From an uncultured Campylobacterales bacterium (GTDB lineage: Bacteria > Campylobacterota > Campylobacteria > Campylobacterales > Arcobacteraceae), in contig CANNFB010000001.1 of assembly GCA_947503785.1 (NCBI GenBank), positions 62,001 through 126,000 on the forward strand: a stretch of DNA of 64,000 bases. The letters are read 5' to 3'. A program made the translations under genes and the position numbers. This document shows, piece after piece, positions 8,063 to 48,562 of this stretch. Position 1 is the first letter of the stretch. The number at the start of each line of letters is the position of its first letter. The notes below the pieces were generated by a model, which saw nothing but the letters and a program-made list of their open reading frames with translations, did not search any database and had not been told where the DNA came from.

Positions 8063-8990
8063 TATTTTTACTTTCGTTACTCGCACCTTTGAAAAAGGCA
8101 TCACCTAAAACACTTGTACTTCCAACCATTTGTGCTACTTCATAAGGTAAAATCATTTTATCAGTTGATGAACTTTCAGCAAGTGCTTTAAAAGCTGCTA
8201 CTCTATCTTTTGCAAGTAAGAACTCTGCTGCTTTTTCATTTTGAACCATTGATTCATTAATTAATCTCATTGCTTCTTTTTGTCCAGCTGCAATTTGTTC
8301 TTGTTCATATCTTTTCGCATCTGCCATTCTTTCAATTGCTTCTGCTCTTAAAATCTCTTCTTGTTTAAAACCTTCTGCTCTTCTAATAACTGCTTCTTTA
8401 TCTGCACGTGCTTTTGTTTCAATAGCTCTTTTTTCTCTTTCAGCTTCCATTTGCATATTCATAGCTCTCTCAATTTCAGCGGGAACAGAAATATCAGATA
8501 TTTCAACACGAGTTACTTTAATACCCCAGTTTGCAGCTGCGCTTCCTAATTCATTTTGAAGTTTTGCATTTAGCGATTCACGATTTGATAAAGTATCATC
8601 TAAATCCATTCCACCAATTTCAGACCTAAGTGTCGTCATTGCAAGATTTGCAATTGCATTTTTAAAATCAACTACATTATATGTAGCTTCTTTTGCATCA
8701 TCAACTTTACAAAATACAATTCCATCGATAGAAATATTTACATTATCTTTTGTAATTACTGATTGTTTTTCAATATCAACTAGTTGCTCTCGTGAAGTTA
8801 AAACAGCTCTAATAGAATCAACAACTGGAATAATTAAGTGAAATCCACCATGAAGTACTCTATTAAATTTACCAAGTCTTTCAACTAAAAATAAATCTGA
8901 CTGAGGAACAATTCTAACCCCTTTTATAATAATAACTAGTGCAAAAATTATAATTGCTACTGCGAATATTAAATTTTCTTCTATTTGCAT
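8055..8990 (-). CDS. SPFH/Band 7 membrane protein (QmcA/stomatin-like)
   Basis: A 311-residue protein with one N-terminal membrane helix (about residues 5-25), an SPFH domain (RIVPQSDLFLVERLGKFNRV onward), and a coiled-coil Glu/Ala/Arg-rich C-terminal region (about residues 175-260). It matches the slipin/QmcA group of membrane-organising scaffolds. The NfeD partner is encoded immediately downstream with an overlapping start. The likely role is oligomeric organisation of inner-membrane proteins or quality control. No protease domain is present. Confidence 0.87.
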   Translation of the reverse strand: MQIEENLIFAVAIIIFALVIIIKGVRIVPQSDLFLVERLGKFNRVLHGGFHLIIPVVDSIRAVLTSREQLVDIEKQSVITKDNVNISIDGIVFCKVDDAKEATYNVVDFKNAIANLAMTTLRSEIGGMDLDDTLSNRESLNAKLQNELGSAAANWGIKVTRVEISDISVPAEIERAMNMQMEAEREKRAIETKARADKEAVIRRAEGFKQEEILRAEAIERMADAKRYEQEQIAAGQKEAMRLINESMVQNEKAAEFLLAKDRVAAFKALAESSSTDKMILPYEVAQMVGSTSVLGDAFFKGASNESKNNA

Positions 8991-9019
8991 AATAAATCCT
9001 TTTTATATTTATAATTTAT

Positions 9020-9895
9020 TTAAAGTAAAATATTTTTTAGATTAAGTCTAAAAATATTTCCATTACTTATTGTATCTATTTTAATAGTAATCTTATTTTT
9101 ATCACAAAATTCTTTTACAATATTTAAACCTAAACCAAAACCATCATTTGAAGAATTTGATTGGTAATATCTATCAAATATTATAAGTAAGTTTTTTGTA
9201 TCAATCTTTTCACCCTTATTAAATATAGATAAAATATTATTTTCAAAAGTAATATCTACAATAGGCTTCTCTTTACTATTATATTTAATTGCATTTGAAA
9301 TAAGATTATCAATAACTTTTTCAAAACCATTAATATCAGTTAAAAGGCCAATATTTGGTAAAGTTGCCGTAATAATAGTATCTTTTTTTATATCATCAAA
9401 TTTTACAATAGAAATTGCGATTATCTCATCTAAAAAGCACTCTTGCTTTTCTATTTTATCTATCTCTTTTTTAATATTATATTCCATATCATCATATAAT
9501 TTTAAAAGATTGTTAGAGGCTTGTTTTATTCTATCTAGACGTTTCAAACTCTTTTCATCAGTGATATTTTTTTCTAAAAGTTGTGTATTCATCTTTATAG
9601 TTGATACTGGAATATTTAGTTCATGGATAGTTTCTTTTATATTTTTTTGTAAGTTATCATCACTTGTAAATAAGGGCTTTAAAATACTTGAAGTAAAACT
9701 AAGAAAGATTATAAGTGCAATGACTAATAAAGGAACTATTATATATATAAAGTTTTCTTGATTAAAGCCTAAGAATAAAATAGTTAAGTAGTTGATATAT
9801 AATACTATGATTAAAGTGAACGTAAATATTACAGAAATAGAGATGAGAAAATCTCTTTTTTTAGAATTCAACTTTGTATCCAATACCTTTAACAT
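9020..9895 (-). CDS. Membrane sensor histidine kinase
   Basis: A 291-residue kinase with two membrane helices (about residues 14-38 and 48-70) and almost no periplasmic loop between them, so the signal is probably sensed in the membrane. A dimerisation/phosphoacceptor domain (H-box IHELNIPVSTIKMN, near residue 88) and an ATPase domain follow, with the N-box NLISNAIKYNS and G-box DGFGLGLNIV. It overlaps the 3' end of the response-regulator gene by 35 bases, so the two form a coupled pair. The stimulus is unknown. Confidence 0.85.
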   Translation of the reverse strand: MLKVLDTKLNSKKRDFLISISVIFTFTLIIVLYINYLTILFLGFNQENFIYIIVPLLVIALIIFLSFTSSILKPLFTSDDNLQKNIKETIHELNIPVSTIKMNTQLLEKNITDEKSLKRLDRIKQASNNLLKLYDDMEYNIKKEIDKIEKQECFLDEIIAISIVKFDDIKKDTIITATLPNIGLLTDINGFEKVIDNLISNAIKYNSKEKPIVDITFENNILSIFNKGEKIDTKNLLIIFDRYYQSNSSNDGFGLGLNIVKEFCDKNKITIKIDTISNGNIFRLNLKNILL

Positions 9896-41077: not shown

Positions 41078-41131
41078 CTATCAATTTAAATTATCAGATA
41101 TAATACTTCAGTTTATCTACAAGGCAAAATT

Positions 41132-41932
41132 ATGGCATTACAAAAATGGGAAATATTCCAAGATGAAGCAACAGATTTTTTAAATAATTATTTTAATGCT
41201 AATTTTTCAATGGACGGCGGTTTAGACGCAACAACATCTTATATAACAGTAAGAAAAGGTATTCAGCTTCGTACAACTATTGAAGCAAAATTTGCTTCAA
41301 CTCAAGCAGGACAAATTGTACTCGAATCAGAGAATAAAAAATTTAGCTTTTGCGATAAAAGTAAAAATGAATCAAATAAATATACAGATGAGATAATAAA
41401 ATATTTAAATAAAAACTATTCATCATTTGCAGGAACAAATACTGCGAATATTCATGTAAATATTTCTAATAATATACTTTTTAACTGGGTAAAAACAATT
41501 TATGAAGATAAAAATGTTGAGTGGATTATATCTTCACAAAAGTTCAACAAGTTAACTTTAAAAGATTTACTTTTTATTCCAATAAACGAAATAGAAAACT
41601 ACTTTGATATTAGCCTAGTATTTAGAAGAAAGAAAACCGGAAATACACATATACCAGGTAAAGACATAATAGATTTCAAAGAGCAGTTAGATGAAACAAC
41701 AAAAAACTACAAAATCAAAAAAACTGATAACAAGTACTTGTTAACTACTAGTTCAAGATTATCTGATTTTAATATTGGTAGTAAATATTTAGTAAGTATG
41801 ACAAATGTGGATTGTGAGTATTATGTAAAGAAAAAAGACATAAACACTAACCCTAATATTATGTTTCAACTAAACTTAAAAGATAATATAGAATTTAAAG
41901 GTGAGCTTTTCAAAAAGATTTTTGATTTATAA
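41132..41932 (+). CDS. Protein of unknown function with a possible PD-(D/E)XK nuclease signature
   Basis: A 266-residue soluble protein. In the N-terminal 65 residues, MDGGLDATTSYITV (candidate metal-binding Asp near 33) is followed about 20 residues later by TIEAKFASTQAGQIVLES: an E-x-K with a trailing Gln, the pattern of PD-(D/E)XK restriction/repair nucleases. The rest is alpha/beta with FDISLVFRRKKTGNTHIPGKDI and no family I recognise. It has AAGG before its ATG. It is at the left end of the accessory region that holds the toxin-antitoxin and Septu-like genes. Assignment as a nuclease is a motif-level inference only. Confidence 0.5.
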   Translation: MALQKWEIFQDEATDFLNNYFNANFSMDGGLDATTSYITVRKGIQLRTTIEAKFASTQAGQIVLESENKKFSFCDKSKNESNKYTDEIIKYLNKNYSSFAGTNTANIHVNISNNILFNWVKTIYEDKNVEWIISSQKFNKLTLKDLLFIPINEIENYFDISLVFRRKKTGNTHIPGKDIIDFKEQLDETTKNYKIKKTDNKYLLTTSSRLSDFNIGSKYLVSMTNVDCEYYVKKKDINTNPNIMFQLNLKDNIEFKGELFKKIFDL

Positions 41933-43989: not shown

Positions 43990-44265
43990 CTACACTATTT
44001 GTATCTTTAACTCTTTTCCTAATATATTTGCAAAGTTTTGTAAAGTAGATAGTCTTATATCTTGAGCATGATTTTCTATTCTTGATATTGCAGATTTTTT
44101 TGTATGAAGTTTAAAAGCTACCTCTTCTTGTGTCATACCAGTATCAATTCTTGCTTGTTTTAACATTTCACCTATTTTAAACTCTTCATAACCTTTGTCA
44201 AAATTTTCGGCAAACTCTTTGTCTAATTTTTTTCTTTTTTCTATGTACTTTTGTAAATCACTCAT
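43990..44265 (-). CDS. higA: HigA-type antitoxin (XRE helix-turn-helix)
   Basis: A 91-residue protein with a C-terminal HTH_3 domain: [51 protein letters not shown]. It overlaps the toxin gene by 8 bases and follows it, the toxin-first order typical of higBA. It neutralises HigB and represses the operon through the palindrome at 44611-44628. Confidence 0.88.
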
Positions 44266-44602
44266 TTTCTAAATACTCCCTTTTTCTTCTTTGTGCTAAA
44301 TCAATTTCACTTGTAGAAGTCTTTTGATCTTTTTTTCTAAAAGCATTAGTCAAAATGACTAAACACCCTTTATCTTCAAAACCAAGAAACCTAAAGTTGT
44401 TACTTCCATATTGAACTCTTACTTCAATAATATCATCAGTATTTACAAGTTTTTTATAAAACTTAGTAGATACATTGTGTGATTCTTCAATAAGCTGTAA
44501 AACCCAAGTAATCTTCAATATTTCTTTCTTAGATAATGAATCTATGAAATCCTCAACCGGACATTTACCTGATTTTGTTTTATAGAAAATTATCTCTTTC
44601 AT
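44258..44602 (-). CDS. higB: HigB/RelE-superfamily toxin (Gp49-like)
   Basis: A 114-residue protein starting [23 protein letters not shown], with [38 protein letters not shown] and [29 protein letters not shown]: the Gp49/HigB fold with the Lys/Arg-rich C-terminal active surface. It is predicted to cleave mRNA on the ribosome. No truncation is seen, so the pair should be active. Confidence 0.88.
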
Positions 44603-45561: not shown

Positions 45562-46539
45562 TTATACCACTATGTTTTTATACAAATCTTTTTTTAGTTT
45601 ATATAATAATTCTCTTTTTTTATTCATAAATTCATATTCATAAAAAACTATTTTCTTAACATCAAAACTAGATAACCCAACAGTATGTTTTGCAATATCA
45701 TTAATTTTTGATTTTCTATACTTTCTATTTTTATCAATTATATTTTTTAAAACTTCTGTATGCCCTGCATATAACTCTTGTATTAAAAAAGTATCTAAGT
45801 GCATTTTATATTCTGGTTTAGATACTAAATATTTATAATTTTTTATATAAATTTTATTTAAATAAATATCATAATCAAACTCTATTTCATCAAATATCTT
45901 TTGTGGAGGATATATCGAGGCTTTGTAAAAATCTTCATCATTTTTTGCTCTTTGATTACAAAATAAGCAAGAAGGAACTAAGTTTGATAATGTAACTGAG
46001 AGAAAAGGGTACCTCGATTTTGGGTAAAAGTGGTCTAAATCAGGTGTAATCATTTTTGAACCTTTTTTAGCTTCTATTACGTTTATATAACTTCGGTAAC
46101 AATACGGGCAAATATTAATATTTGTTTCTTCAATAACTCTTTTTCCATGAATACTTCTAAAGTTTTTGTACATATTGGAATATTTTTTTATTATGAATTT
46201 TTTTATTGTTTTGACTTTTTCATCATTACAGTTTTTACTAATATCACATACTGTTTTTTCATTAGTATTTATAAAAATATCTCTACTTTTTTCTCCAAAT
46301 TTAGCAATTAATGATTTGAAAAAAAATTCAATAGTATCACTATTTTTTTCATAACTTGAAAGAAATGTATTATTCGATAAAAATCCTTTTTCTTCAAATG
46401 ATAAATTTTCTAGAAACTCCTTAGTTTCTTGATGAATAGTTAAATAATCATTCTCTTTCAATATTTTATTAGTATCATAAATTTTCTTATTAAAATATTT
46501 TAATAATTCAACCTGATATTCTTTTTTTATATTAACCAT
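45562..46539 (-). CDS. HNH endonuclease of a Septu-like defence pair (PtuB-like)
   Basis: About 325 residues from ATG 46539 (GTG 46548 is an alternative). A zinc-HNH nuclease core lies near residues 144-200: NICPYCYRSY, then PDLDHFYPKSRYPFLSVTLSNLVPSCLFCNQ, i.e. two CxxC zinc knuckles bracketing the catalytic DH and the Asn. A helical N-terminal region precedes it. This matches the HNH proteins partnered with AAA ATPases in Septu and in some retron-linked modules. It overlaps the ATPase gene by 8 bases. It probably degrades DNA or tRNA after phage sensing; no reverse transcriptase gene is present. Confidence 0.75.
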   Translation of the reverse strand: MVNIKKEYQVELLKYFNKKIYDTNKILKENDYLTIHQETKEFLENLSFEEKGFLSNNTFLSSYEKNSDTIEFFFKSLIAKFGEKSRDIFINTNEKTVCDISKNCNDEKVKTIKKFIIKKYSNMYKNFRSIHGKRVIEETNINICPYCYRSYINVIEAKKGSKMITPDLDHFYPKSRYPFLSVTLSNLVPSCLFCNQRAKNDEDFYKASIYPPQKIFDEIEFDYDIYLNKIYIKNYKYLVSKPEYKMHLDTFLIQELYAGHTEVLKNIIDKNRKYRKSKINDIAKHTVGLSSFDVKKIVFYEYEFMNKKRELLYKLKKDLYKNIVV

Positions 46540-48562
46540 TACGTTCACTTACATAATTAAACATTTTTTGAAGATGTTCTTGTATAACCTCTTCTCCAAT
46601 ATTGTTAATTATTAGATTTACTTCTTTGTAAAAATCTTCTAATGATTTATAAATAACTTCTAAATATTTATTATCATTGATTTTTTTAAATTTTTCATTT
46701 TCAATAAATTCATAAATAAATTCTTTTATATCTTTCAATAAAACTTCATTCTCTTCTTCTTTATTATCTGTTTCATACATTAAGTCAAAAAAATCTCTTA
46801 ACATAAAATAGTTTTCTTCATTATCTGCTTTTTTTATTGCATATAAAACATATAATATTTCGGATAATTCTTTTATAACTTCTTCGCTAAATGAACCAAT
46901 AGTATTACTAACATAAAAATCATCCTTGAAAATGTCAAATATATTACCCCCAAATGTTTTTGAACTCACACTTTCTTGTCCAAGATATATAATATTTTCA
47001 TCATAAATATCACTTACAACAAAGGGTGAATGAGTCGCTATTACAAATTGAAATTTTTTTGTATTATCTTCATATGTAAAAAACTCATTAAGTTGTTTTA
47101 TAAAATTTCTTTGCCATTCTGGATGAAGATGTAACTCAACTTCATCAATTAAAATTAAATACGTTTTATTTTTAACATTATCATAACTACTATCTTCGGC
47201 CTGAATTTCATCTAATTCTTTTATTCTTCCTAAAATATTTGCGAAATATGATAATAATGTTTTTTCACCAGAACTTAATCTAAAATAGTTAAGACTATTC
47301 CCATTTTTTATTAAATTCATCTCAAATTTAATATTTTTTTTTCTTGTTAATAATTTAATTATTCTTAATGTTTCTAAGAATTCTCCTGATTTTACTATTT
47401 CCTTTAAATATTCATCATTATTAAAATTATTAATATTTAACAATAACTCTTTATTTATAAATATATCTTTTAATAAATAATAAGTCTTAGGTAATACTAA
47501 TTGTTTAACTTCTTTTGGAGTTTTAATATCTTTAATAAAATTATATATACTATCTATAATATTAATAGATAATTCACCTGTTAAATCTTTTTCTTTTTTT
47601 ATTACCTTATCTAATAAAAAAATAAACTTTGATTTACTATCTAATTTAAGATTTTTCAATATTAATTCTTTAAAGAAGAAATCATCTATCTTTTCAGATT
47701 TAAGTTCAAAAGATAATTTATCTTCTAATTCAAGATATAATTCTTCTGTAAAAAAAGACTCTATTAAGGAAGGGTATTCTTTTTTAAGTTCTTTAAAACT
47801 TGGAAGTTTAATATTAAAATAGTACTGTTCATTTTCAACATTAATATTTATACTTCCATATTCATATCCTAAATTGTTAAACATAACCTTTGATTTTTTA
47901 TTTAATAAAACTGAAATTAAATTCATTAAAGTCATATATTCATATGTAGTTTCATCATTTTCAATTTGTTTTGTACCAATATATTTTAATCTTTTTTGAT
48001 AATGTATTTTTTTAGCTGAAGAAGCACCTGATAATTGAGTTTTTAATAAATCATATATCCTATCAAAAGGAGAAAGACTATGAAAGATTATATTAAATTG
48101 ATAAGGTAACACAGAATATGCATATTCTGTGTTAGAAATTAATAAATCTTTATCATTTTGATTCCAAGTATTTTTATAAATATCTATACTTTCCCTATCA
48201 AGAAAAAGATTCCAGTTTTTTGAATTATGATAATAGGTTTGTATTAAAAATTCATTTTTCTCTTCATCATAAAAAAGTAAATGAATTTTATTAACTAATT
48301 CTTCTCCATCAAGATTCCATAGTAGTGGGGCAATAATAAGTTCAAAAAATGTTGTTTTACCTATTCCATTCTTACCAACAATGCAAGAAATATTGCTCAA
48401 ATTATTATTGAAGGGATGATGATAATTACCATTTGTTTCTAATTCAATTTTTTTATTACCTCTGGGAATAAATTTTTTAACAATAAATTCTCTATCAAAA
48501 TAATATCCACCCGCTTTTATATGTTTATAATCTTCTTCAATATGAATATATAGTAACTTCAC
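46532..48562 (-). CDS. AAA/ABC-type ATPase of a Septu-like defence pair (PtuA-like)
   Basis: A 676-residue SMC/ABC-like ATPase. Walker A is IVGKNGIGKTTFFE (about residues 62-75), the signature motif RLSSGEKTLLSYFANI is near 430, Walker B is LILIDEVELHLHPEWQ near 471, and the switch His region is ATHSPFVVSDIYDENII near 510. A long helical insert lies between Walker A and the signature, and there is a 120-residue helical tail after the ATPase. No TOPRIM domain is seen, so it is not an OLD nuclease. The start is GTG with AAAGGAG 5 bases upstream. The HNH gene follows with an overlapping start. Upstream is a decayed fragment of sbcC. Confidence 0.75.
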   Translation of the reverse strand: MKLLYIHIEEDYKHIKAGGYYFDREFIVKKFIPRGNKKIELETNGNYHHPFNNNLSNISCIVGKNGIGKTTFFELIIAPLLWNLDGEELVNKIHLLFYDEEKNEFLIQTYYHNSKNWNLFLDRESIDIYKNTWNQNDKDLLISNTEYAYSVLPYQFNIIFHSLSPFDRIYDLLKTQLSGASSAKKIHYQKRLKYIGTKQIENDETTYEYMTLMNLISVLLNKKSKVMFNNLGYEYGSININVENEQYYFNIKLPSFKELKKEYPSLIESFFTEELYLELEDKLSFELKSEKIDDFFFKELILKNLKLDSKSKFIFLLDKVIKKEKDLTGELSINIIDSIYNFIKDIKTPKEVKQLVLPKTYYLLKDIFINKELLLNINNFNNDEYLKEIVKSGEFLETLRIIKLLTRKKNIKFEMNLIKNGNSLNYFRLSSGEKTLLSYFANILGRIKELDEIQAEDSSYDNVKNKTYLILIDEVELHLHPEWQRNFIKQLNEFFTYEDNTKKFQFVIATHSPFVVSDIYDENIIYLGQESVSSKTFGGNIFDIFKDDFYVSNTIGSFSEEVIKELSEILYVLYAIKKADNEENYFMLRDFFDLMYETDNKEEENEVLLKDIKEFIYEFIENEKFKKINDNKYLEVIYKSLEDFYKEVNLIINNIGEEVIQEHLQKMFNYVSERNG

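Follow-up and report, generated by a model that had tools for sequence, protein, structure and literature searches.

Type II restriction enzymes that occur without a methyltransferase are expected to be toxic, and their existence is treated as a standing puzzle (Ershova et al. 2012, PMC3488263). Solitary HpaII-like enzymes of Bacteroides, which have no methyltransferase and are conserved across species, are described there, mutation of the active site and a changed function are considered for solitary enzymes, and restriction-modification (R-M) systems with separated components are taken as known. A further kind is that of the modification-dependent enzymes, represented by BisI, with families of active relatives (PMC4926085).

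The gene studied here lies in a window of 64,000 nucleotides, this being the whole stretch of DNA that was analysed, from the genome of an uncultured Arcobacteraceae bacterium (G000 below). It occupies positions 41132..41932 on the + strand, and its identification rests on the open frame and on homology to HhaI. The translation gives 266 aa without interruption, in which residues 29-36 read GGLDATTS and residues 49-61 read TIEAKFASTQAGQ. This confirms the reading frame and the two motifs on which an earlier note had based its suggestion of a PD-(D/E)XK nuclease; the opposite strand in the same register contains many stops. It is noted that no Pfam or NCBIfam family matches the protein up to E 1, and the remark in that note that the protein belonged to no recognisable family was thus a fair one. 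With the PDB sequences, the sole match up to E 10 is R.HhaI (6uke), with a phmmer E-value of 2.2e-27 over residues 5-254. The PADLOC model REase_II matches the window protein with E 5.8e-28, and it matches all 15 proteins of our alignment A1, among them an enzyme from genome G193, which is of the same order and another family. The AlphaFold2 model of the window protein is weak, with a mean pLDDT of 60.9 and values below 50 at residues 25-59; even so, fold comparison recovers HhaI, by Foldseek with E 1.3e-14 and TM-scores of 0.66/0.67 as the sole match with E <=0.001, and by VIA-align with Z 16.1 and an rmsd of 4.1 over 236 aligned residues, all other rows having Z <=4.0 (PDB rows with Z <5 were set aside). 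From the sequence and the predicted model together, the homology of the window protein to HhaI can be regarded as safe. The caution that such short motifs may arise by chance is answered by the alignment of residues 5-254 with R.HhaI and by E51, A52 and K53 being unchanged in 15 sequences. Our preferred reading, to which we give about an even chance of being right, is that the gene encodes a former restriction enzyme of the HhaI type (GCGC), which has lost the Asp of its active site and has been kept for a predicted non-cleaving, DNA-binding role.

Relatives of the protein are present in 17 of the 104 Arcobacteraceae genomes searched (G000 counted), which belong to 6 of the 20 genera, and the other 87 are without the gene; among named public records, those of Poseidonibacter lekithochrous and P. 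ostreae are two examples that contain a relative. The wider searches covered samples of the class and of the phylum, besides the Arcobacteraceae and the family of G193. In the class and phylum samples (3 of 397 and 2 of 396 genomes with a relative), G193 and G423 are the only genomes with a relative besides that of the window itself, and in the family of G193 a relative occurs in G193 alone (1 of 153 genomes). One scan of genome contigs gave 10 loci. Plasmid and phage records contain no relative of the window protein or of HhaI at E 1e-3, and viral contigs gave no relative with HhaI or the alignment as query, in a search whose pattern step reaches limited distances.

In the HhaI structure of Horton et al. 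from 2020, the enzyme is said to be a monomer with the motif SD-X11-EAK, and from this motif we take Asp34 to be its catalytic Asp. The HhaI sequence fits the motif, having S33-D34, then 11 residues and then E46-A47-K48. When the window protein is aligned to HhaI, S36-Y37 is followed by 13 residues and then by E51-A52-K53 (codons at 41282..41290, +), and the motif is incomplete: the EAK is present and the Asp position is held by Tyr37 (codon at 41240..41242, +). The Asp of GGLDATTS, Asp32 (codon at 41225..41227, +), which had been put forward as the catalytic one, aligns with HhaI Asp29 and lies five residues ahead of the catalytic position; moreover, it is replaced by His in 2 of the 17 carriers (G009 and G008). 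Among the 17 carriers, residue 37 itself is His nine times, Tyr seven times and Phe once (in G458); HhaI and the G193 enzyme, the two Asp-bearing references compared, have Asp.

E51, A52 and K53 are invariant in the 15 sequences used for the selection analysis despite synonymous codon variation, and the EAK together with Gln61, the conserved Gln after it (codon at 41312..41314, +), is unchanged also across all 18 rows of the comparison of HhaI, the G193 enzyme and the solitary proteins. Among the 16 solitary sequences, 113 of the 266 columns are invariant (G008, with a run of N in its frame, was excluded from this position comparison, as it was from the dN/dS calculations and the trees). HhaI and the G193 enzyme have 124 positions in common. 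The 16 solitary sequences all retain 35 of these and all lack another 62, and at the remaining 27 they are divided. With half of the shared positions changed and the EAK kept, the solitary proteins make up a separate lineage, and with those 62 positions gone the GCGC specificity may be gone as well. From the unchanged EAK and the choice of aromatic residues at position 37, we argue that the old active site would still do something, be it DNA contacts, a structural role or an altered chemistry.

The same residues count against our preferred reading to some extent, because the EAK and the Gln would not be needed in a purely structural relic, so that some chemistry may remain. An acid from elsewhere, Asp32 or the residue at position 28, which is a clade-specific Asp or Glu, may also fill the site, in a region (residues 25-59) where the predicted model is poor. 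The main rival explanation is that of a modification-dependent (Type IV / IIM) or re-targeted nuclease with a rearranged site that cuts only modified or foreign DNA and acts as a lone mobile defence gene. Such an enzyme would need no methyltransferase, and it would fit the retention of the EAK and Gln61, the acid at residue 28, the patchy occurrence in 17 of 104 genomes and the defence-type genes nearby in the window, with BisI as a precedent (PMC4926085). However, the Phe at position 37 of G458 is not able to bind metal, the two carriers mentioned above have His in place of Asp32, and the protein, with 266 aa versus the 258 aa of HhaI, shows no added reader domain. We consider this rival unlikely, though not to be dismissed.

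We now turn to the methyltransferase that an active GCGC enzyme would be expected to have beside it. No match to PF00145, the C5 DNA methyltransferase family, was found at E 0.001 in 12 of the 17 carriers, G000 among them, the 12 being made up of 8 of 11 carriers plus G423 plus G454, G459 and G469; in G000, the PF00145 search thus gave no linked cognate methyltransferase, by which a type II R-M system is recognised. Of the three single-contig carriers, G009 and G423 are without PF00145 and G444 has one match, about 685 kb from the gene, and it is only in G444 that a match lies on the contig of the solitary gene at all. The other four carriers with a C5 methyltransferase (G005, G039, G049 and G458) have it on contigs other than that of the gene. 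Note also that some carrier assemblies are incomplete (G004 88%, G008 86% and G025 74%). A weak PF01555 match in G000, considered as a candidate methyltransferase, proved to be PrmA and was rejected.

The frequency of the presumed target was also determined. In G000, 81 GCGC sites are seen versus 80 expected over 424 kb, and in the window 10 are seen versus 9.1 (Markov) or 12.0 (shuffles) expected; in 400 kb of the carrier G009 and of the non-carrier G003, the numbers are 53 versus 72 and 76 versus 90, respectively. With GCGC not avoided and PF00145 not found, an active GCGC cutter would face unprotected targets in G000, an argument that weakens if the specificity has changed. As a separate observation, GATC is depleted in carriers and non-carrier alike, with observed/expected ratios of 0.25 in the window and, for sampled stretches of the genomes, 0.37 in G000, 0.46 in G009 and 0.41 in G003. 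The proposal of a restriction-like PD-(D/E)XK nuclease stands as to the superfamily, through the homology to R.HhaI, while an active GCGC restriction nuclease in the window genome is not supported, in view of the residue at the Asp position, the PF00145 result and the GCGC counts.

One could nevertheless suppose that the protein still acts as a restriction enzyme, at GCGC or at an altered target, in a separated R-M system where protection comes from a methyltransferase encoded elsewhere in the genome or in some other way. Separated R-M systems are on record (PMC3488263), 5 of the 17 carriers do have a C5 methyltransferase, PF01555 is above its cut-off in 1 of the 11 carriers searched for it (G057), and the contigs of the gene in G039, G049 and G458 are short enough to hide a neighbour. 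On the other hand, the 12 carriers without PF00145 include the single-contig G009 and G423, the match in G000 is to PrmA, and the Asp position is lost. In addition, among the 10 of 16 carrier methyltransferase matches that were compared, 9 align locally with the M.HhaI-like enzyme of G193 at 24-36% identity and one gives no alignment at 1e-5. Taken together, these points make the separated arrangement improbable.

If neither the catalytic Asp nor the partner gene is present, and 87 of the 104 family genomes do without the gene, it might be thought that what is left is a decaying relic without function. The frame, however, is open with no internal stop in 17 of 17 carriers (that of G008 containing the run of N), and the median dN/dS among 15 sequences is 0.24 by NG86 (105 of 105 pairs) or 0.15 by YN00 (93 of 105 pairs). 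The solitary gene is under purifying selection. A promoter-like box is also retained: all but one of the 17 carriers have TATAAT at -32 to -34, the copy in the window being a -10-like box at 41099..41104 (+), 33 bases 5' of the start codon, with a putative promoter function. Between it and the gene, AAGG at 41121..41124 (+) may serve as a ribosome-binding site, and a similar site is seen in most of the upstream stretches viewed. On the open frames and the dN/dS values we reject the relic, which we judge very improbable indeed.

With regard to the same upstream region, GCGC abuts the TATAAT, 36-38 bases 5' of the gene, in 5 of the 17 carriers, namely G005 (L007), G004 (L011), G454 (L055), G423 (L056) and G444 (L057), and the remaining 12 have no GCGC within 300 bases upstream of the gene. 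This could be a trace of autoregulation or could be due to chance, and we take it as a lead only.

Based on our preferred reading, that of a former HhaI-type enzyme kept for non-cleaving DNA binding, the following pathway can be proposed from the sequences. An ancestor of the HhaI type (GCGC) would have become separated from its methyltransferase, and in its active site an aromatic residue (His, Tyr or Phe) would have taken the place of the metal-binding Asp. The protein has retained the fold of HhaI, the strand with the EAK and the conserved R-x-K-K-x-G stretch; its gene has a promoter-like box of its own, has since been maintained by selection and occurs in varied chromosomal settings. The solitary protein is then predicted to bind DNA, perhaps at GCGC or at a site that has drifted from it, without ordinary double-strand cleavage, and to act by occupancy, whereby it would shield sites, regulate, or interfere with incoming DNA.

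The settings of the gene do indeed vary. The neighbours differ among the 15 regions compared: in G000 and G001 the gene is preceded by a 130-aa gene, five regions have a YaeQ gene and the rest have other genes; in G458, too, a YaeQ-like start was read by eye upstream. Regions with differing neighbours have in common the ORF, at most some 60 bases 5' of it (in G459 just a few) and at most some 30 bases 3' of it. The similarity extends further in pairs whose neighbours are the same, for example G000-G001, G039-G049, G023-G057, G008-G009 and G004-G423. Because intergenic DNA diverges fast, the lack of shared flanks says little when taken alone, and the differing neighbour genes say more. All 10 genomes of the genus have the upstream 130-aa gene, but it is followed by the HhaI-like gene in no others than G000 and G001.

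The surroundings in the window, described earlier as rich in defence-type genes, do contain such genes, although the relatives of the gene occupy other settings. A candidate defence pair at 45562-48562 (-) consists of an ATPase at 46532-48562 (-), with PADLOC matches to a PtuA-type model (4.6e-30) and to PDC-M62A (2.7e-27), and an HNH-like protein at 45562-46548 (-), with a match to PDC-M62B (2.4e-31); the NCBIfam models of PtuA and PtuB match the pair far below their cut-offs. A toxin-antitoxin-like pair at 43990-44602 (-) is formed by a Gp49-like protein (44258-44602) and an HTH_3 protein (43990-44265). Five of the 15 regions compared have an ATPase gene (roughly 360 aa; AAA_23, slightly below the Pfam cut-off) close to the solitary gene, at 8173-9258 (-) in L040 and with similar genes in L053, L026, L029 and L030; ATPases of the same type were recognised by eye in G002 and G006, both of which are without the solitary gene.

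Synonymous distances suggest that the gene has been transferred between genera. For G049-G025, which are of different genera, dS is 0.23 for the gene versus 1.15 for recA, and for G469-G039 it is 0.21 versus 0.94; the four pairs with the lowest ratios are all between genera, with dS of 0.21-0.25 versus 0.94-1.15. The case for transfer rests on these distances, and against it count the generally lower dS of the gene (a median gene/recA ratio of 0.59 over 120 pairs of 16 carriers) and the low values within genera (0.36 for G423-G454 at the lowest). Within genus g1 the ratio is 0.89-2.60. In the AU test, neither g15 (p 0.154) nor g1 (p 0.432) was rejected as a single clade, and the topology is no proof of transfer. 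We may go a step further and suppose a mobile, non-cutting site-occupancy factor that spread as a single gene between Arcobacteraceae genera, a proposal that we regard as conceivable but rather doubtful. If it is true, a dead binder of the GCGC type would be useful in itself, for instance if it kept restriction of the HhaI or HinP1I type away from the sites of its host or blocked incoming or phage DNA.

Finally, we compare the solitary protein with the known systems. With R.HhaI (6uke) it shares homology over residues 5-254, the fold, the EAK and the Gln, and a similar length (266 versus 258 aa); it differs in having 31% identity, a replaced Asp34, no methyltransferase beside it and an EAK spacing of 13 rather than 11. 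In the R-M pair of G193 (L036), the endonuclease, of 259 aa, is 29% identical to the window protein and 52% to HhaI and, unlike the solitary proteins, keeps both SD and EAK. A C5 methyltransferase gene (best PDB match M.HhaI, 3.1e-45) comes first, and the gene of that endonuclease starts two bases beyond its end; a second C5 methyltransferase gene is found on the far side of the endonuclease gene, on the opposite strand. The HpaII-like solitary enzymes of Bacteroides are of a different enzyme family, and the main text of PMC3488263 contains neither "HhaI" nor "Arcobacter"; in the literature searched, with partial coverage, no report on HhaI homologues in Arcobacter and no description of the solitary clade were found. 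A solitary restriction enzyme with a mutated active site is nevertheless a known kind, active-site mutation and changed function being listed in that paper among the explanations for solitary enzymes (PMC3488263). The clade described here, which has lost the same catalytic acid and is still open and under selection, would offer a likely answer to the puzzle of the solitary enzymes that is readable from sequence, and the proposed repurposing is directly testable against a homologue, HhaI, with solved structures.
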